A DNA stretch of 64,000 nt. It comes from Aldrovandia affinis. Lineage: Eukaryota; Chordata; Actinopteri; Notacanthiformes; Halosauridae. This document shows positions 4,858 through 38,742 of the stretch, piece after piece. The stretch is from the NCBI GenBank assembly GCA_029706075.1, contig JAINUG010000150.1, forward strand, positions 451,501-515,500, read 5' to 3'. The notes beneath the pieces were generated by a model. The model was not told where the DNA came from. It did not search any database and saw nothing but the letters and a program-made list of their open reading frames with translations. The translations under genes and the position numbers were made by a program. Each line of letters begins with the position of its first letter. Within the stretch, counting starts at the first letter, position 1.

Positions 4858-5957
4858 ATAACACACAAACACACACACACAGTTACTCACACACACACAC
4901 ACACGCACATGCACACACACACATACACACACACAGTTACTCATGCACACACAGTTACGTTACTCATGCACACACAGTTACTCATGCACACACAGTTACT
5001 CATGCACACACAGTTACTCATGCACACACAGTTACTCATGCACACACAGTTACTCATGCACACACAGTTACTCACACACACACACACGCACACACACAGT
5101 TACTCATGCACACACAGTTACTCATGCACACACAGTTACTCATGCACACACAGTTACTCATGCACACACAGTTACTCATGCACACACAGTTACTCATGCA
5201 CACACAGTTACTCATGCACACACAGTTACTCATGCACACACAGTTACTCATGCACACACAGTTACTCATGCACACACAGTTACTCATGCACACACAGTTA
5301 CTCATGCACACACAGTTACTCATGCACACACAGTTACTCATGCACACACAGTTACTCATGCACACACAGTTACTCATGCACACACAGTTACTCATGCACA
5401 CACAGTTACTCATGCACACACAGTTACTCATGCACACACAGTTACTCATGCACACACAGTTACTCACACACACACACACGCACACACACAGTTACTCATG
5501 CACACACAGTTACTCATGCACACACAGTTACTCATGCACACACAGTTACTCATGCACACACAGTTACTCATGCACACACAGTTACTCATGCACACACAGT
5601 TACTCATGCACACACAGTTACTCATGCACACACAGTTACTCATGCACACACAGTTACTCATGCACACACAGTTACTCATGCACACACAGTTACTCATGCA
5701 CACACAGTTACTCATGCACACACAGTTACTCATGCACACACAGTTACTCACACACACACACACACACAGTTACTCATGCACACACAGTTACTCATGCACA
5801 CACAGTTACTCACACACACACACACAGTTACTCATGCACACACAGTTACTCATGCACACACAGTTACTCATGCACACACAGTTACTCATGCACACACAGT
5901 TACTCATGCACACACAGTTACTCATGCACACACAGTTACTCATGCACACACAGTTAC
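4858..5957. repeat. 18-bp minisatellite array with higher-order blocks
   Basis: After a (CA)-rich lead-in, about 50 copies of an 18-bp unit (CAGTTACTCATGCACACA) run to 5957. The array is split into blocks of about 6, 20, 14, 2 and 7 units by CA-rich spacers near 5069-5097, 5461-5489, 5749-5768 and 5811-5826. The first two long spacers are almost identical, so whole blocks were probably duplicated as units. The unit length is a multiple of three and has no stops, so every plus-strand frame stays open, which does not indicate a gene. Confidence 0.97.
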
Positions 5958-6205
5958 TCCACTCCCATACAAAGCCACACCCACCCACACAGCCAGTCCT
6001 ATACAAAGCCACACCCACACACACACACACAGCCACTCCCATACATGGCCACACCCATAGACACAGCCACTCCCATACATGGCCACACCCACAGCCACTC
6101 CCATACATGGCCACTCCCACACTCACAGCCACTCCCATACATGGCCACACCCATAGACACAGCCACTCCCATGCATGGCCACTCCCACACACACACAGCC
6201 ATGGC
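5958..6205. repeat. Degenerate minisatellite with CCATACATGGCCA core
   Basis: Units of about 28-34 bp share the core CACTCCCATACATGGCCACACCC with variable linkers such as ATAGACACAG. About seven units follow directly on the 18-bp array. CCATACATGG contains the near-palindrome CCATRCATGG. Confidence 0.9.
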
Positions 6206-16992: not shown

Positions 16993-17140
16993 TAACATAT
17001 GCCATTTAGCAGACACTTTTACCCAAAGTGACTTACAGTAGTGAATGCATACATTTTTCAGTATATGTGCCCCAATGAGAATTGAAACTAGAACCTAAGC
17101 ATTGTCAGCACCTTGCTCTACCTACTGAACCATTCATGTG
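16993..17140 (-). mobile_element. SINE fragment with L2-like tail
   Basis: GCCATTTAGCAGACACTTTT then ACCCAAAGTGACTTACAGTA is an inverted L2-type tail. It is followed by a GAATGCATACATTTTTCA block and a tRNA-like region (GAATTGAAACTAGAACC, TGCTCTACCTACTGAACCA), in the order seen in many fish SINEs on the opposite strand. Confidence 0.6.
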
Positions 17141-17389: not shown

Positions 17390-19463
17390 TAAGGGTGGGC
17401 AATTCCGGTCCTGGAGGGCTGGTGTGTGTGCAGGCTTTTGTTTTTACGAATTAACCTGGCTCAATTAACTGATTAGCTGTATGCATTAATGCTGGTTCAC
17501 TCTCAGATTAGATTACACAGTAAACATTTCATACAGGGACACACCTCCCCTTTGTCTCTAATGTCATTAACTCCTCTCTTTCCTCTGGCTCTGTCCCCTC
17601 CTCCCTCAAATGCGCTCAGGTTGTCCCCCTCCTCAAAAAACCCTCTCTGAATCCTGCTGTCATCTCTAACTACCGACCTGTCTCTCTCCTCCCCCATTCC
17701 TCTCCAAAACGTTAGAGCGGGCTGTCTATAATCAACTGTCTGCTCATCTCTCACAGAACGACCTGCTTGATCCTAACCAATCTGGGTTCAGAGCAGGCCA
17801 CTCCACAGAGACTGCTCTCCTTGCGGTCACAGAGGCTCTTCACATCGCTAAGTCCCGATCCCTTAGCTCCGTCCTCCTTCTCCTCGACCTGTCGGCGGCA
17901 TTCGACACCGTGGACCACCGGATCCTGCTCTCATCTCTCGTCGAGATGGGAATCTCTGGATCTGTGTTGACATGGTTTGAGTCCTACCTGGCTGACCGGT
18001 CCTACCAGGTGGCCTGGAGAGGATCCCTCTCCTCTCCCCGCACCCTCTCTACCGGTGTCCCGCAGGGCTCGGTGCTAGGCCCTGTCCTATTTTCTCTGTA
18101 CACCAAGTCACTTGGTTCTGTTATTTCTGCTCATGGTTTTTCCTATCACTGTTATGCTGATGACACTCAACTGTTTCTCTCCTTCCCTCCATCTGATACC
18201 CAGGTCCCGGCACGGATCTCTGCATGCCTGGCTGACATCTCCGCATGGATGTCCACCCACCACCTGAAGCTGAACCTGGGGAAGACAGAGCTGCTCTTCC
18301 TCCCAGCGAAGGGCTCCCGATGATTGATGCATCAATCACCGTGGAAGGCTCCATAGTGTCTCCGTCCCAGTCTGCCAGGAGTCTTGGGGTAACCCTGGAC
18401 AACCAGCTGTGCTTCTCGAGCCATATTGCAGCGATCACTCGGACCTGCCGTTTCTCCCTCCACAACATCCGGAGGATCCGACCGTTCTCACCCAAGAGGC
18501 CACTCAACTCCTGGTCCAGGCCCTGGTGATCTCACGTCTGGACTACTGCAACTCCTTGCTGGCAGGCCTTCCGGCCTGTGCCATCAAGCCACTGCAACTA
18601 GTCCAGAACGCTGCTGCTCGCCTGGTGTTCAACCAGCCGAAGTTCACCCACGTCACCCCTCTACTCTCCTCTCTGCACTGGCTCCCCATCGCAGCACGCA
18701 TCAGATTCAAGTCACTGGTGCTCGCTTTTCAAGCTGCCAGAGGTACTGCTCCCCCATACCTCCAGTCACTCATCACGCCCTACACCCCGTCCAGACCTCT
18801 CCGCTCCGCCTCCGCTGGCAGACTGACTGCCCCATCCCTCCGGGCGCCTGGCAGCCGCTCTCGCGGTCTCGCCTCTTCTCTGTCCTGGTCCTCGTTGGTG
18901 GAACGACCTCCCGCAATTGGTCAGGACTGCGGAATCACTTCCAATCTTCCGCAAGAGACTCAAAACCCACCTCTTCAGACTCCACTACCCCTGATCTCTG
19001 TCCATCTAGCTAAATTGTCTTCACCACTGTCTACTTGTTCAACACTATACTCTTTATTTAAAAAAATAAAAATAAAAAAATAAAAAAAATTTAAAAAAAA
19101 TTGTACATTTTGTAAAAATTGTAAAATACCTTTTCCTTCCCGGTGTTACAGGTATGGTACGCAGATGCCTGCAATGATGTCTATTGCTGTATTCCTGCAC
19201 TGATCTCGTGCGCTAACTGTGATTGTTCCTACCATGTATTGATGCACATCTTGTAAGTCGCTCTGGATAAGAGCGTCTGCTAAATGCTTAAAATGTAAAA
19301 ATGTAAAATGTACACAAGAACAGTCTTCAGCTGTCATTCATGAGCTTAGCAGAAAATTTCGATAAAATGTCAGATCATGTAAATGATTGGCTTAAATAAA
19401 TAATTAAGAATAAAAGTTGGCATGAAATCCAGAAACAGATATGGCCCTCTTTGCCCACCCCTG
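17390..19463. mobile_element. hAT-like MITE interrupted by an L2 LINE
   Basis: The right end reads TTTGCCCACCCCTG and the left TAAGGGTGGGCAATTCC, forming an inverted pair with changes in the first bases. It is flanked by a perfect 8-bp duplication GACTATGC (17382-17389 and 19464-19471), the hallmark of hAT insertion. Without the L2 insert the MITE is about 300 bp. Comparison with the copy at 15175-16005 places the L2 insertion inside GGGACACAC|AAGAACAG. Confidence 0.85.
17543..19312 (+). pseudogene. 5'-truncated L2-clade LINE with decayed reverse transcriptase
   Basis: The translated pieces cover the middle and C-terminal part of a non-LTR reverse transcriptase. They include an NYRPVSLL motif near 17670, a DLSAAFDTVDH block near 17890, GVPQGSVLGP near 18055 and the catalytic YADDTQL near 18150. 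A C-terminal region with LDYCNSLLAGLP (near 18540) and LHWLPI (near 18675) follows. The endonuclease and first RT blocks are missing, as expected from 5' truncation. Frames change near 18310, 18500 and 18890, so no protein is made. The 3' end (GTAAGTCGCTCTGGATAAGA, then GCGTCTGCTAAATGCTTAAA) is the conserved L2 tail with ATGTAAA repeats. ACAC at both edges may be the short target duplication. Confidence 0.9.
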
Positions 19464-23592: not shown

Positions 23593-24487
23593 TGTTATAT
23601 TCTGAGTATCTGTTCTGTTTGTTTTTGTACTTTGTTTATCTTTCTTCGAGTCATGTTTTGTTCACGTCTGTTATCCCCGTCTGTTATTGTTCCTGGTCCA
23701 CTCCTTGTCTTGTCATTCACTTCGGGAGTTTACATTTCGGGATTTCAATCTTCGCTTATTTTCTCGTTTCTTCCTTCCTACTTTCTTGATCGCACTTTGT
23801 ATATATTAGTTAGATGTGTACAGTACTAACTAACTAATCTACTAACGTTAGGGATTTAGATTTAGTTACTAACACTACTAATCACTAATTATCTCACGCT
23901 TCCTACTACCGGCATTTCTCTCTCTCATTATCCTATCCCTGCTTAGTTTTCCGTTCTCTCTTCTCTCATACGCACGCAACGTTTCTCCTTGCGTACCTCC
24001 CCTTTACTATGCACGTGTCTGCCTGTTCTCCCAGGTCGTTTATTGTCTATATGTTTGTATGGTTCAGTGTCCGTGTCTTACGTTTCCCTCTTGTTATGTA
24101 ATTATCTCTTCCCTGTGTTCCAGCCTCTCTCTCCTCGTTGTCTCACCTGATTTCTATTATGTCTCCCTGTATATATGTTCAGTGTTTTCATTTCCCCGTG
24201 TCAGTACGTTGATTCTATTTCCCTGAGCCTACCTTTCCGAAGCCAGAGTTATTAGCATTTCCCGAGACTACCCTTTGATTATGACCCCGAGCCTGCCCAG
24301 CGATTTTGTCCTTTTGCCCTTCTGATTCCTGAGTATCGACCTTTTGACTGCCCTATTACTACTTCTCTCTGCCTCACGATTTTGTACCTCTGATTCCCTG
24401 ATTCTTGGTTTTGACCCCTGCCTGTGAATAAACAACTCTTTTGCCTAATCCCTGATCTGCGTCTGGGTCCTTACCGCGGTCGTCACA
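23593..24487 (+). repeat. 5' LTR of the Gypsy/chromovirus element
   Basis: It runs from TGTTATATTCTGAG to CGGTCGTCACA. U3 would be 23593-24199 and R would start at 24200. AATAAA lies at 24427-24432. Differences from the 3' LTR are mostly homopolymer-length changes, one 4-bp indel in a CT run, and about two substitutions (including GATTATGAC/GATTACGAC and ACCGCGG/ACCTCGG). Confidence 0.96.
24170..24210 (+). promoter_or_regulatory. LTR core promoter: TATA box and predicted R start
   Basis: TATATAT starts at 24170, exactly 30 nt before GTCAGTACGTT (24200-24210). That 11-mer is the sequence complementary to the PBS, so two independent signals place the transcript start at 24200. In the 3' LTR the same arrangement lies at 29634 and 29663. 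Confidence 0.7.
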
Positions 24488-24488
24488 G

Positions 24489-24499
24489 GACGTACTGAC
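24489..24499 (+). promoter_or_regulatory. Primer binding site of the self-priming type
   Basis: One base after the LTR end lies GACGTACTGAC. It is complementary to the predicted first 11 nt of the transcript (GTCAGTACGTT) at 10 of 11 positions. No TGG for a tRNA CCA end follows the LTR. Known family behaviour: Tf1 and sushi-like elements use the folded 5' end of their own RNA as primer, over 11 nt. That this element does so is inferred. Confidence 0.75.
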
Positions 24500-24503
24500 C
24501 AGG

Positions 24504-25530
24504 ATGGACCCAGCAGATCCAGACCAGCTCCGCTTCGCCCTCGAGCAGCAAGGTGCCATGCTCGGACGGCACCAGGACCATCTGGAGCGTGTGGCTGAAC
24601 ACCTGCAGTCTCTCACCTCCCGGTTTGGCTGAGCTTACCCTCACGCTGCGAGCTCCGGTCATTAACCCCGCACCCCAGCATGCCGCGGCGCCACTTCAAC
24701 CCGAGCCTTCCTCCCGGCTGGTGCGCGAACCACGCCTGCCTCCTCCTGAGATACGCAGGTGAACCGGGAGGTTGCCGTGCGTTCTGACGCAGTGCCAGTT
24801 GATCTTCCAACTGCAGCCATCCACGTTCTCAGCGAATTATCCCGGTCGCCTCGTCATCACCCAACTGACCGGTCGTGCCAAGTCCTGGGCTACCACCGCG
24901 TGGGAGGGCTCTCTTCCCTGCTGTCAGAGCTTTGACCGGTTTTCCGAGGAGATGAGGAGGGTCTTCGACCGGTCTAAGCAGGGTCATGACGCGGCTCGGG
25001 AGATGCTCTACCTACGCCAGGAGGGAGGGTCGGTGTCGGATTACGCCATTCGTTTCCAGACCTTGGCTAACGCCTGTGGCTGGGGAAGGAAGGCGCTGTA
25101 CGACGCCTTCATCTGTGGACTCTCCGAACATCTTAAGGACGAGATCCTGACTCGTGACCTGCCAGAGTCCTTCGATGACCTTATCAGCCTTGCCATCCGC
25201 GTGGACTCCCGGCTTCAGGAGCGTCGTCGCTGGCGTAGTTCCGGAGGTTTTCCCGGGTCTGGGAGGACCGGGGTCAGGTCACCGATCGGTGCCTACAACC
25301 ACCCTGGAGCAGCTCCATCTACTACCCCGGAGCCTGAACCCATGCAGCTGGATCGGACCCGCCTTTCTCGTCAGGAGCGTGACCGCAGGATGGCCAACCG
25401 ATCCTGTCTCTACTGCGGTGAGTCTGGGCACTTCATTTCCGGCTGTCCAGTAAGCCAACACCCACTAGTTAGGAGAGGAGCACTAGTGGGTGTCATTCCA
25501 ATCGAACGCTCCTCTAAACAACGGACCTGC
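24504..25530 (+). pseudogene. gag: gag region (capsid and zinc-knuckle nucleocapsid), frameshifted
   Basis: The likely start is the ATG at 24504, just after the PBS, beginning MDPADPDQLRFALEQQ. That frame stops after about 43 codons, and the related sequence continues in another frame. The main body reads from about 24772, with a capsid-like segment (AREMLYLRQEGGSVSDYAIR, LSEHLKDEIL). A CCHC zinc knuckle of the form C-x2-C-x4-H-x4-C follows at 25405-25446 (CLYCGESGHFISGC). At least two frameshifts lie near 24620 and 24755. In function this is the structural protein of the virus-like particle. Confidence 0.88.
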
Positions 25531-25970
25531 CTGCCGGTGACCATCGAGTGGGAGGGTCAGAGGCGAGAGACCACCGCGCTCATTGACTCGGGGGCTGAGG
25601 AGAGCTTCCTGGATGCCGGTGCGGTCGCGAAGTGGGGGATTCCAGTTTCCAGTCTGTCTCACCCCCTCATTGCCAACACACTCAACGGTCAGAGACTGGC
25701 CCAAGTTACCCAGATCAGTTCCCCTCTTACGTTGCGTACTTCCGGCAACCACCAGGAGAAGATAAGGTTGCACATTATTGACTCCCCTCACTCACCTATT
25801 GTCCTTGGCCACCCGTGGCTGGTGAAGCATAATCCGTCCGTGGAATGGAGCAGTCACAGGATTGTGGGTTGGAGCCCACAATGCCTTTCCCAATGCCTGC
25901 AGCAAGCCCATTCATCTGTTCCGAGTCCCCTGTCTTCTGTCGAGTCCCCTTTCTTCCGAGATGAGTCTTG
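25531..25970 (+). pseudogene. pro: Retropepsin-type aspartic protease region
   Basis: It continues in the frame of the zinc knuckle. The active-site motif ALIDSGAEESF has its DSG at 25585-25593, and the conserved PIVLGHPWL segment lies near 25797-25823. The frame ends at a stop at 25969-25971, before reverse transcriptase begins in another frame. Gag and protease in one frame is usual for this group. Confidence 0.88.
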
Positions 25971-25984
25971 ACCTGTCGGTCTTT

Positions 25985-26900
<916 letters not shown>

Positions 26901-26904
26901 TGAA

Positions 26905-27370
26905 CTAGCTTTCCGGTCACTTAAACAACGCTTCACTTCTGACCCCATTCTCATTCACCCTGATCCCACCGCCCAGTTTATCGTCGAGGTCGACGCTTCC
27001 AACATTGGGGCAGGTGCCATCCTTTCCCAACGCTCCGCCAAGGACAGGAAGGTTCATCCCTGCGCCTTCTATTCCCATCGCCTCAACCCTACGGAGCAGA
27101 ACTACGACATTGGCAACAGGGAACTGCTCGCAGTCAAGCTCGCCTTGGAGGAGTGGAGGCACTGGCTGGAGGGGGCTGAAGTTCCTTTTCTGGTCTGGAC
27201 AGACCACAAGAACCTGGAGTACCTGCAGACTGCCAAGAGACTCAATTCCCGCCAGGCTCGTTGGTCGCTCTTCTTTTCGAGATTCAATTTTGTTCTCTCT
27301 TATCGACCTGGATCCAAAAACACTAAGCCTGATGCCCTTTCTCGCCGTTTCGAACCCGTATCCAGGGTTT
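26905..27370 (+). pseudogene. pol: RNase H domain region
   Basis: It is open in one frame. It carries the first catalytic aspartate in [14 protein letters not shown] (near 26986-27020), the glutamate in NRELLAV (near 27115-27135), and the second aspartate in [10 protein letters not shown] (near 27197-27226). It ends with PDALSRR near 27328-27348. It degrades the RNA strand during reverse transcription. This part alone looks intact. Confidence 0.9.
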
Positions 27371-27493
27371 CCGTTCCGGACACCATCCTGCCTCAATGCG
27401 CTATCAACAGCGTTCAATTTCGCATTGAGGCAACAGTGCGCTCCGCCTGGAGGGTGAGGCGGCCCCAGTCGCTGTCCCTCGAACCGCCTCTTC

Positions 27494-28483
27494 GTGCCCA
27501 GTTCTGTCCGATCCCAGGTGCTTCAGTGGGGTCACTCCTCTCGCCTGTCATGTCACCCTGGCATAAACAGGACTATGTCTTTTATCCAGAGACGTTTTTG
27601 GTGGCCTGCCATGGTCCAGGACGTTAGGAGTTTTATTTCTGCCTGCTCTGTCTGTGCCCAGAATAAGGTTTCCCATCAGCATCCCTCTGGTTTGTTACAG
27701 CCCCTACCCATCCCTCACCGCCCTTGGTCCCACATAGCTCTGGATTTTGTTACGGGTTTACCCTCCTCCAACAGCAACACCACCATTATGACGGTTATTG
27801 ATCGTTTTTCTAAGGCTGTTCATTTTGTCCCCTTACCCAAGCTTCCCTCCGCCAAGGAGACAGCCACCCTCATTATCCAACACGTTTTTCGTTTACATGG
27901 CATCCCCAGTAATATTGTTTCTGACAGAGGTCCCCAGTTTATCGCCAGGTTTTGGAAGGCTTTTTGTTTACTCCTTGGTTCTTCCGTCAGTCTTTCCTCA
28001 GGTTTCCATCCCCAATCTAATGGCCAGACAGAGCGGGCTAATCAGGTTATTGAAACCGTTCTGCGGTGCTTGTGCTCTCGGAACCCATCCTCTTGGAGCC
28101 AACATCTTCCCTGGGCAGAGTATGCCATCAACTCCCAAACCTCTTCCTCATCCCGTATGTCCCCCTTTGAATGCTGCCTTGGTTACCAACCACCCTTATT
28201 CCCTAGCCAGGAGAGGGAGGTGGGTGTCCCCTCTGCCGAGGCGTTCATCCGTAGATGCCGACGTACCTGGAACCTCACACGCCGCAACCTCCTCCGAGCC
28301 AGCGCCCGCATGAAGGAGACGGCGGACAAGGGGGCGCTCAAGGCTCCCCGTTACCGGGTTGGGCAGCGGGTCTGGTTGACCACCAGGGACATTCCCCTCA
28401 GAATGGACCACCGCAAACTCGCACCCGTTTTATTGGCCCCTTCCCCATTTCCAGAATTATCAGTCCCACTGCCGTTGTTTTGA
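27494..28483 (+). pseudogene. int: Integrase domain with intact D,D35E core
   Basis: The frame runs 329 codons from about 27494. It has an HHCC zinc finger (HPGINRT ... CSVCAQNK), then catalytic D at 27743-27745, D at 27923-27925 and E at 28031-28033. The spacing between the last two is exactly 35 residues. A GPY/F-like region follows near 28340-28450, where the frame breaks. The integrase is shifted relative to RNase H near 27500, so pol is not continuous. It joins the DNA copy to the chromosome with a 5-bp stagger, matching the GTTAA duplication. Confidence 0.92.
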
Positions 28484-28612
28484 AGTTACCCCACACCATG
28501 CGTCGTATTCACCCCACCTTCCATGTTTCCCGCCTCAAGCCCCTTGTAACCCACCCTTTGTGTCCCGCCCCTGAGCCACCCCCACCCCCCCCGCCTTATT
28601 GATGGTGGAGAT

Positions 28613-28777
28613 GCCTACACGGTCCGTAAGATTTTGGACGTTCGCCGCAGGGGCCGTGGTCGCCAATACCTGGTGGACTGGGAGGGCTACGGTCCCGAGG
28701 AACGTATCTGGGTCCCATCCCGGTTCATATTGGACAAATCCCTTATCAGAGACTTTGATTGTTCCCGAGCTGTCTAA
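28613..28777 (+). pseudogene. Chromodomain at the integrase C-terminus
   Basis: It is 54 codons ending in TAA. The pattern [13 protein letters not shown], then [18 protein letters not shown], includes the chromodomain aromatic and acidic signature (Y/V near the start, W-EGY, then W). In chromoviruses this domain can bind histone marks and guide integration. It lies in a different frame from the upstream integrase because of a shift near 28430-28600. Confidence 0.92.
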
Positions 28778-28779
28778 TA

Positions 28780-28975
28780 TTTTGCCATGTGTTTTACCCT
28801 GCCTGTCTGAGATTCTGCCCGTGCCTTTACCCTGCCTGTCTGAGATCCTGCCATGTGTTTTGACCCTGCCTGTCTGAGATTCTGCCCCGTGCCTTTACCC
28901 TGCCTGTCTGAGATTCTGCCATGTGTTTTGACCCTGCCTGTTCTGAGATCCCGCCACGTGCTTTGCCCCGTTCTG
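28780..28975 (+). repeat. About 33-bp tandem repeat in the element's 3' untranslated part
   Basis: Five to six units with the core ACCCTGCCTGTCTGAGATTC alternate between CTGCCATGTGTTTTG and CTGCCCGTGCCTTT linkers. It lies between the chromodomain stop and the polypurine tract. Confidence 0.9.
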
Positions 28976-29040
28976 CCTGGCTTTCCCTGCGTCTTGTTTG
29001 TTTATCTGTTTTTGTTGTTCCTCCTGTTAAACGCCAAGAG

Positions 29041-29062
29041 GCGTTTCTTAGGGGGGGGGTCC
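29041..29062 (+). promoter_or_regulatory. Polypurine tract (plus-strand primer)
   Basis: TTAGGGGGGGGGTCC lies immediately upstream of the 3' LTR start at 29063. The G9 run fits the polypurine tract that primes plus-strand DNA, with a 3-base TCC gap. Confidence 0.7.
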
Positions 29063-29950
29063 TGTTATATTCTGAGTATCTGTTCTGTTTGTTTTTGTAC
29101 TTTGTTTATCTTTCTTCGAGTCATGTTTTGTTCACGTCTGTTATCCCCGTCTGTTATTGTTCCTGGTCCACTCCTTGTCTTGTCATTCACTTCGGAGTTT
29201 ACATTTCGGGATTTCAATCTTCGCTTATTTTCTCGTTCTTCCTTCCTACTTTCTTGATCGCACTTTGTATATATTAGTTAGATGTGTACAGTACTAACTA
29301 ACTAATCTACTAACGTTAGGGATTTAGATTTAGTTACTAACACTACTAATCACTAATTATCTCACGCTTCCTACTACCGGCATTTCTCTCTCTCATTATC
29401 CTATCCCTGCTTAGTTTTCCGTTCTCTCCTCATACGCACGCAACGTTTCTCCTTGCGTACCTCCCCTTTACTATGCACGTGTCTGCCTGTTCTCCCAGGT
29501 CGTTTATTGTCTATATGTTTGTATGGTTCAGTGTCCGTGTCTTACGTTTCCCTCTTGTTATGTAATTATCTCTTCCCTGTGTTCCAGCCTCTCTCTCCTC
29601 GTTGTCTCACCTGATTTCTATTATGTCTCCCTGTATATATGTTCAGTGTTTTCATTTCCCGTGTCAGTACGTTGATTCTATTTCCCTGAGCCTACCTTTC
29701 CGAAGCCAGAGTTATTAGCATTTCCCGAGACTACCCTTTGATTACGACCCCGAGCCTGCCCAGCGATTTTGTCCTTTTGCCCTTCTGATTCCTGAGTATC
29801 GACCTTTTGACTGCCCTATTACTACTTCTCTCTGCCTCACGATTTTGTACCTCTGATTCCCTGATTCTTGGTTTTGACCCCTGCCTGTGAATAAACAACT
29901 CTTTTGCCTAATCCCTGATCTGCGTCTGGGTCCTTACCTCGGTCGTCACA
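29063..29950 (+). repeat. 3' LTR of the Gypsy/chromovirus element
   Basis: It runs from TGTTATATTCTGAG to GGTCGTCACA and is 888 bp. The predicted R start is 29663 and AATAAA is at 29890-29895. The 7-bp length difference from the 5' LTR is fully explained by three 1-bp and one 4-bp indel. Confidence 0.96.
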
Positions 29951-36859: not shown

Positions 36860-37028
36860 AAAGCAACAAGCACTAGCTCGCCCAGCGTTAATGCTCGCAG
36901 GTACTAGCTCGCCCGGTGTTAGCGCGGGCTCACACTAGCTGGCCCAGTGTTAGCGTTAGCATGCATTAGCTCACCCAACATTAGCAATGAAACGTACTAG
37001 CTCACCCGGCATTAGCGCTGCGCTAACA
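36860..37028. repeat. Degenerate ~35-45-bp tandem repeat, CTAGCTCGCCC...TTAGCG units
   Basis: Five units each contain CTAGCT(C/G)(G/A)CCC followed by a (G/A)(C/T)(G/A)TTAGC phrase. They are strongly diverged. The array ends about 40 bp before the palindromic LTR element. Confidence 0.75.
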
Positions 37029-37720
37029 CAGCCCAACCAGATCCTCAGCTCCTGCATTCCCTCCATCTGTTACGTTCTGAGTGTCTGTTCGGTTTGTTTT
37101 TGTACTTTGTTTATTTATCTTTCTTCGAGTCATGTTTCTTTCACGTTCTGTTCCCGTCTGTTATTGTTCCTGTTCCAGATCCACTCCTTGTCTTTGTCTT
37201 TTACACTTCGGGAAATGTTTGGGTTTTTTCCTTCTTATTATCTCGTTTTCTTCCTTCTTACTTTCTAGATTGCACTTTGTATATATTAGTTAGATGTATA
37301 TAGTACTAACCAACTAATCTACTAACATTAGGGATTTAGATTAAGTTACTAACACTACTAATCACTAATTATCTCACGCTTCTGACTATCGCTGTCTTTC
37401 TCGCTTATTATCGTATCCCTGTTAGCTTTTCACTTTCCCTTTCATTCGCACGCAGATTCTGTCTATGCATTCCTCCCCTTCTAACTATGCATGTGTCTGC
37501 CTGTTCTTCCAGGTCGTTTATTGTCTATGTGTCTGTCATTCCCAGTCCGTGTCTTTCGTTTCCCCTCGTTATTCTATTAGCGAATTCCCTCGTTATTAGA
37601 TTAACGATTCCCATTGTTTTCACCTGTGTTCCTCCCCTCTCTCCTCCCCGTCACACCTGAGTCCTATTGTGTTTTCCTTCCCTGCCTGTATATTAGTTCA
37701 GTGTTTATGTTCATTCCTTG

Positions 37721-37763
37721 TATATCTGTTCTGTGTTCTTGTTCTTTCCCGGGTCAGTAGTGA
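37721..37763 (+). promoter_or_regulatory. TATA-like motif and predicted R start of the palindromic element
   Basis: TATATC at 37721 lies 32 nt upstream of GTCAGTA at 37753, where R should begin by homology with the full-length element. Downstream, GTGATTC replaces CGTTGATTC, so this copy's R start has lost 2 nt relative to its own PBS. An ATTAAA signal at 37980-37985 marks the end of R. Confidence 0.55.
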
Positions 37764-38040
37764 TTCTTATTCCCTGAGCCTACTTTTCCGAAGCCAGTGT
37801 TTATAGATTTTTCCGAGACTACCCTTCTGATTACGACCCCGAGTTTGCCTAGCGATTTTGTTTGTTTGCCTTTCTGCCTTCCTCATTATCGACCTTTTGA
37901 CTGCCTGTTTTCGACTTCTCTCTGCCTCGCGTTTTTGTACCTCCGATTCTCTGATCACCTGGTTTGACCCCTGCTTCCCATTAAACAACTCTTTTGCCTT
38001 ATCCTGATCTGCGTCTGGGTCCTTATCCGGTTCCTAACAG

Positions 38041-38051
38041 AACGTACTGAC
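38041..38051 (+). promoter_or_regulatory. Self-priming PBS at the inversion point
   Basis: AACGTACTGAC is the perfect complement of the 11-nt R start GTCAGTACGTT found in the full-length relative (24200-24210). Upstream is U5; downstream the sequence is inverted U3. Confidence 0.75.
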
Positions 38052-38742
38052 CCGGGAAAGAACAAGAACACAGAACAGATATACAAGGAATGAACATAAA
38101 CACTGAACTAATATACAGGCAGGGAAGGAAAACACAATAGGACTCAGGTGTGACGGGGAGGAGAGAGGTGAGGAACACAGGTGAAAACAATGGGAATCGT
38201 TAATCTAATAACGAGGGAATTCGCTAATAGAATAACGAGGGGAAACGAAAGACACGGACTGGGAATGACAGACACATAGACAATAAACGACCTGGAAGAA
38301 CAGGCAGACACGTGCATAGTTAGAAGGGGAGGAATGCATAGAGAGAATCTGCGTGCGAATGAAAGGGAAAGTGAAAAGCTAACAGGGATACGATAATAAG
38401 CATGAAAGACAGCGATAGTCAGAAGCGTGAGATAATTAGTGATTAGTAGTGTTAGTAACATAATCTAAATCCCTAATGTTAGTAGATTAGTTGGTTAGTA
38501 CTATATACATCTAACTAATATATACAAAGTGCAATCTAGAAAGTAAGAAGGAAGAAAACGAGATAATAAGCAAGAAGGAAAAACCCAAACATTTCCCGAA
38601 GTGCAAAAGACAAAGACAAGGAGGATCTGGAACAGGAACAATAACAGACGGGGAACAGAACGTGAAAGAAACATGACTCAAGAAAGATAAATAAACAAAG
38701 TACAAAAACAAACCGAACAGACACTCAGAACGTAACACCATC

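Follow-up and report, generated by a model that had tools for sequence, protein, structure and literature searches.

Recurrent palindromic LTR insertions in Aldrovandia affinis are best explained by a wrong second strand transfer in a putatively self-primed chromovirus family

How can a retrotransposon insertion carry the U3 end of an LTR at both of its outer ends? This question is raised by one locus in the window, as we call the whole stretch of 64,000 nt of Aldrovandia affinis DNA that was analysed. A reading made from the sequence only had described there a complete LTR (37069-38039), a G, an 11-nt primer binding site (PBS), and an inverted U3 extending to 38737. We found the same layout, but with the start one base earlier. 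The whole element spans 37068-38737 and consists of the following parts:

37063-37067, no strand: left copy of the target site duplication (TSD), CCATC
37068-37752, plus strand: left U3 arm, starting with TGTTACG, with TATAT at -32 from R
37753-38039, plus strand: single R-U5, starting with GTCAGTAGTGA, with the poly(A) signal ATTAAA at 37980, and ending with CTAACA
38040, plus strand: G between the LTR end and the PBS, also present in a full-length relative (24488)
38041-38051, plus strand: 11-nt PBS AACGTACTGAC, the switch point, exact complement of the R start GTCAGTACGTT of the relative (24200 and 29663)
38052-38737, minus strand: right arm, the reverse complement of U3, with the outer end CGTAACA
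38738-38742, no strand: right copy of the TSD, CCATC

As the sequence-only reading had claimed, R-U5 is present once, each outer end is a U3 end (TGTTACG), and a single CCATC duplication encloses the whole. The words abutting the element match at a length of 5 bp only, with mismatches at 3, 4, 6, 7, and 8 bp; the chance of a 5-mer common to two window positions is 0.0013. The region 37068-38737 contained no open frame of ≥150 aa. A 31-bp spaced repeat was observed at 36867-37018, ending about 50 bp to the left of the palindrome.

One alignment of the two arms gave 679 identical positions among 689 ungapped columns, and a second one gave 672 among 682; small indels came in addition. The differences were polarised against 43 other U3 copies of the same genome, including both arms of a second palindrome on contig C1923 (see below). 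Outside an indel that shifted with the alignment (U3 162-166), seven substitutions remained, and their derived letter occurred in none or one of the 43 other copies. Three had changed the left arm (U3 136, 394, and 425) and four the right arm (U3 277, 334, 335, and 568). The right arm had also lost U3 59 (gap in 3 of the 43 copies) and U3 115-116 (gap in none), and the left arm U3 85 (gap in one). Since the differences were mostly private to one arm, the arms of the window palindrome began as one sequence and changed in place. A single origin with later change on both sides speaks against an assembly foldback and also against two unrelated insertions.

Inverted repeats are a classic foldback artefact, and the evidence here comes from an assembly. 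The same layout could result from an inverted duplication following an ordinary solo-LTR insertion. Against both stand the mutations on the two arms, the TSD outside both arms, the unrelated flanks (no BLAST match between the left and the right 1 kb), and the occurrence of the same plan on other contigs with different TSDs. An assembly foldback at the window palindrome is very unlikely, and the two explanations together deserve next to no weight.

The window also harbors a full-length related chromovirus, which served as a yardstick:

23593-29950, plus strand: the related chromovirus, with the TSD GTTAA
23593-24487 and 29063-29950, plus strand: its LTRs
24200 and 29663: its R start GTCAGTACGTT, with TATATA at -30
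24489-24499: its PBS GACGTACTGAC, one base past the 5' LTR
28550-28774: its chromodomain (PF00385, E 2.5e-10), downstream of the integrase core

A G-rich tract precedes the 3' LTR of this relative. Its open frames matched models of gag and protease, RNase H, integrase, and the chromodomain; a piece of reverse transcriptase was matched only below the Pfam cut-off. Among the 120 of 2259 protein matches that were listed, most of the named ones were fish Gypsy integrase-like proteins, besides Ty3 and retroviral integrases. Other repeats of the window were an 18-bp tandem array of about 61 copies (4874-5959) and two UnaL2 LINE 3' elements (16996-17049 and 19240-19293), with a reverse transcriptase frame at 17670-18320.

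The PBS of the relative forms an 11-pair duplex with its own R start, G-U pairs included. The sequence-only reading had also claimed a self-priming family, with the PBS complementary to the start of R. The PBS of the palindrome was complementary to the R start of the relative in 11 of 11 positions, which bears out the family. Both R starts of the relative are identical in sequence, and the PBS of the palindrome can pair with either. The complementarity did not extend to the palindrome's own R start, which pairs contiguously with only the 3'-terminal 7 nt of its own PBS. The best match of this PBS within its own LTR was 8 of 11, a value that shuffled 11-mers reached in 3664 of 5000 cases. The R starts are predicted, from the TATA motif at -30 (relative) and -32 (window copy). 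When folded as RNA, the leader was less structured than shuffled sequences (z +1.8 and +2.3). With respect to the pretzel structure of self-primed leaders, the U5 tail against the post-PBS sequence gave -26.7 kcal/mol. The self-primer of Tf1 reportedly stays attached to the cDNA, according to a report of 2006. Self-priming in Tf1/sushi elements is described in passages of PMC6317226, PMC10085805, and PMC7175516; such passages, including some of PMC3601003, also give an 11-base self-primer that is cut between bases 11 and 12 and the sushi LTR end motifs. Judged by the PBS/R-start complementarity and the chromodomain of the relative, the putative source of the palindrome is a Tf1/sushi-like self-primed chromovirus family.

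We searched the genome (1.22 Gb, 2576 contigs) for further cases. LTRs of the family were numerous, with at least 102 matches. The exact junction occurred at two places, the window and C1923. The pattern of LTR end and PBS occurred at 221 places (13 and 208, with 100 of the 208 listed), and 22 of these, all listed, had some other base at the sixth position past the PBS, where a T normally stands. In seven of the 22 an inverted U3 followed at or just past the PBS. An eighth two-U3 insertion, C102, has a normal leader and came from a DNA search in which 40 of 3819 candidates were scored. The genome thus holds at least eight two-U3 insertions including the window, seven of them with distinct 5-bp TSDs. 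The census is a lower bound, and as it required an intact PBS, insertions that switched at another place are under-represented in it. The eight insertions, with their TSDs and switch points, are:

Window, CCATC: from the PBS end to the U3/R border
C1923, ACAGG: from the PBS end to the U3/R border
C158, TTTAT: from the PBS end to the U3/R border
C2367, GTGTT (recognised post hoc, once the arm end was known): from the PBS end to the U3/R border
C334, TSD none seen: from the PBS end to the U3/R border (placed by likeness to C2367); begins at R, left U3 absent
C2389, ACCAG: from the PBS end into U3, at about position 400
C147, GTGAT: no more than about 20 nt past the PBS, at the short match ATGAA (judged against the leader of C1989); right arm with a 1.4-kb insert
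C102, TTCCC: 458 nt past the PBS, in gag

The remaining 15 of the 22 places were leader variants and deletions (observed or presumed), one pol inversion (C557), and C1801; four of them (C1803, C2022, C2211, and C2542) were judged from 21 matched letters alone. At C1801 a single LTR is followed by a PBS-like inverted stretch. C890 and C1900, where the PBS is joined to pol, were read by eye as deletions. The inverted piece of C557 (L073, 1885500-1891500) is pol (internal positions 1655-3504 of the relative), lying between the PBS and the 3' part. A junction-like match on C2120 (L081, C2120:15800-19300) is not a palindrome: a truncated U3 leads into R, which breaks off after its first 11 nt and gives way to foreign DNA, and neither a left LTR nor a TSD was seen. 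A scan of viral contigs for the 16-nt LTR-end/PBS pattern was uninformative; of the 19 loci found, none resembled the LTR or the relative by BLAST.

The search confirmed recurrence, which the sequence-only reading had proposed to look for: six of the seven other sites each have a 5-bp duplication of their own. Its further suggestion that the palindrome spreads as an element was unsupported. The window and C1923 were about 97% alike in U3 and only 86.6% in R-U5, as expected of separate events, and the R-U5 of C158 was 98% like that of the relative. These three therefore look like separate events rather than copies of a single palindrome, and the eight events as a whole look independent.

The switch from the PBS end to the U3/R border was exact in five of the eight insertions; one joined the PBS end to the interior of U3, and two switched beyond the PBS. 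The right arm reached the U3 end in seven of the eight. The exception was C2367, whose arm breaks off within U3 near position 291, with CA as the last bases, one base off the left arm. The abundance of family LTRs would suit two LTR insertions in opposite orientation that were trimmed afterwards. Against this, a second R-U5 is missing, and the window element has one TSD for the whole. Moreover, in six loci the PBS end is the precise place of the join, and four of these also combine one outer TSD with a PBS-to-U3/R join. We regard two trimmed insertions as very improbable.

Three palindromes with unequal arms were informative about the template. The right arm of C2389 comprises 401 nt, of which the first 361 nt are identical to the left arm and the remainder belongs to another U3 subtype; a 35-mer from this second part occurs exactly in C1801. 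This mosaic arm needs a template change during synthesis or a recombinant template. The right arm of C158 is 101 nt longer than the left and contains U3 sequence near R that is absent from the left arm. In C147 the left U3 ends at 216 and joins R nt 6, and the right arm matches U3 599-78 and 84-1. For C158 and C147, the inequality of the arms is compatible with a sister template and also with subsequent loss of sequence from the left arm. The sequence-only reading had left open whether the strand was copied from itself or from a sister strand. The mosaic and the unequal arms favor two plus-strand strong-stop DNAs priming each other over the foldback of one strand, even though deletion could explain two of the three cases. 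A one-strand foldback is also disfavored because it would leave only one free end for integrase.

We therefore consider it likely that the window element is an aberrant integrated product, in which plus-strand strong-stop DNA annealed to a plus-sense R start and copied U3 backwards, and integrase joined both ends. In self-primed elements the primer is the first 11 nt of their own RNA, which makes the PBS the complement of the R start. The 3' end of plus-strand strong-stop DNA (U3-R-U5-G-PBS) could then anneal to any plus-sense R start, while its proper acceptor would be the 3' end of the minus strand. We infer that it annealed instead to an R start, most likely that of another plus-strand strong-stop DNA present in the particle, and that U3 was then copied back to the 5' end of the template. 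Two strands priming mutually would yield a duplex with a U3 end on each side and an unpaired R-U5 middle. Integrase would have joined both U3 ends, giving the 5-bp duplication, and host replication would have resolved the unpaired middle. Right arms ending at the U3 end are expected if the 5' end of the template is the start of plus-strand DNA. The sequence-only reading is partly supported: the insertion was a single one with U3 at both ends, its switch lies at the PBS, and such events recur, but the PBS was not the exact switch point in all copies. The pairing of the window copy's present R start with its PBS over no more than 7 contiguous nt also counts against the explanation. Annealing by 11 nt is not the sole route, since three of the eight switches do not run from the PBS end to the U3/R border; the direct route via the PBS holds for five or six of the eight, and switches further on account for the rest.

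Two other routes differ in the molecule from which U3 was copied. The 3' R of genomic RNA, still joined to U3, might have been the self-primer, and the plus strand might have read through the primer into the attached U3 RNA. This would yield the same junction, and the PBS can pair with either R start of the relative, both having the same sequence. Genomic RNA continues, however, to the polypurine tract and the coding region, and arms made in this way should often overrun U3; those observed stop at its end in seven cases and inside it in one. We judge this route unlikely. Alternatively, plus-strand strong-stop DNA replaced minus-strand strong-stop DNA in the first strand transfer, with the 3' R-U3 of genomic RNA as acceptor. 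Judged by the match of PBS and R start, the two DNAs can share their last 11 nt, which are complementary to the R start. This route requires U3 RNA that stayed undegraded after plus-strand DNA synthesis and was cut exactly at the U3 border, where the arms of seven of the eight insertions end. It seems improbable to a similar degree. For recurrent, integrase-joined palindromic LTRs in a self-primed family, a second strand transfer gone wrong is the best explanation, most likely with strong-stop DNA as the template.

The start of R was variable within the family. In a tally of 43 LTRs (L020-L021 and L028-L062), 42 passed the filter; a narrower filter gave 40. The forms before GAT among the 42 were GTCAGTATT (19), GTCAGTACT (16), GTCAGTACGTT (3), GTCAGTACGGT (2), and the singletons GTCAGTAGT (window, 37753-37766) and GTCAGTTTT; L029, which was filtered out, reads GTCAGTATT. 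In the U3 subtype of the window copy, the full-length form of the R start was found at eight places, five of them with GTCAGTACGTT. Nucleotides 8-11 of R are a hot spot of variation, beside the primer cut between nucleotides 11 and 12. Each of the two common forms was combined with several R subtypes downstream, and the form agreed between the two LTRs in six of six pairs. The hot spot is possibly a footprint of the first strand transfer after cleavage of the self-primer; old subfamily variants are the alternative. Most full U3 copies of L020-L062 were 94-98% like the window copy (one in L060 78%), and their R-U5 was 82-94% like it. As U3 is more alike than R-U5, an exchange at the U3/R border during strand transfer is suggested. 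At L034, L044, L053, L059, and L061 we observed pairs of family LTRs about 2.5 kb apart from start to start, which are probably non-autonomous elements with about 1.5 kb between the LTRs. A 69-nt duplication of the U3 start was seen in L031, L032, L033, L039, L044, L053, L056, and L071.

Palindromes made up 7 of the 221 places with the PBS pattern. We tentatively suggest that self-priming carries a hazard, since both strand transfers would share one 11-nt address. This might regularly produce integrase-competent palindromic LTRs, in putatively self-primed families only, and two converging promoters might make putative dsRNA against the family. If the explanation by a wrong strand transfer is correct, the palindromes would document, in the genome, a by-product of self-primed reverse transcription that is acceptable to integrase. 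They would also show that concerted integration can do with two U3 ends and that one particle can bring together plus-strand DNAs of different subtypes. Such palindromes are predicted in self-primed families and should be absent from tRNA-primed ones. Ordinary genome assemblies would become a source of data on strand transfer.

The class of palindromic LTRs looks undescribed in the literature searched, where no title or displayed opening of an abstract among the papers listed described it; the search was shallow, and finding no description of this kind is weak evidence of absence. It shares inverted terminal sequences with DIRS elements. DIRS-like elements are not known to have a TSD, whereas the palindrome has a TSD of 5 bp, together with no open frame of ≥150 aa. 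The 5-bp TSD points to integrase. Tyrosine recombinase and circular intermediates are described for DIRS elements in a passage of PMC5633606. The palindrome has no coding region, like TRIM, LARD, and SMART. Those non-autonomous elements have two direct LTRs and no coding region; the arms of the palindrome are inverted, R-U5 occurs once, and there is no second R, which sets it apart from TRIM/LARD. A solo LTR is also short and non-coding, with one R-U5 and one 5-bp TSD. It ends in U5, whereas the palindrome continues via the PBS into an inverted U3 and has U3 at both outer ends rather than U3 and U5; it cannot have arisen by LTR-LTR recombination alone. The palindrome also resembles the Tf1/sushi chromoviruses, self-primed Ty3/gypsy elements. 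The PBS lies one nt after the LTR and is complementary to the first 11 nt of R, the ends are TG...CA with a 5-bp TSD, and the window relative has a chromodomain. The palindrome differs from them by a single R-U5, the lack of a coding region, and two U3 outer ends in place of U3 and U5.
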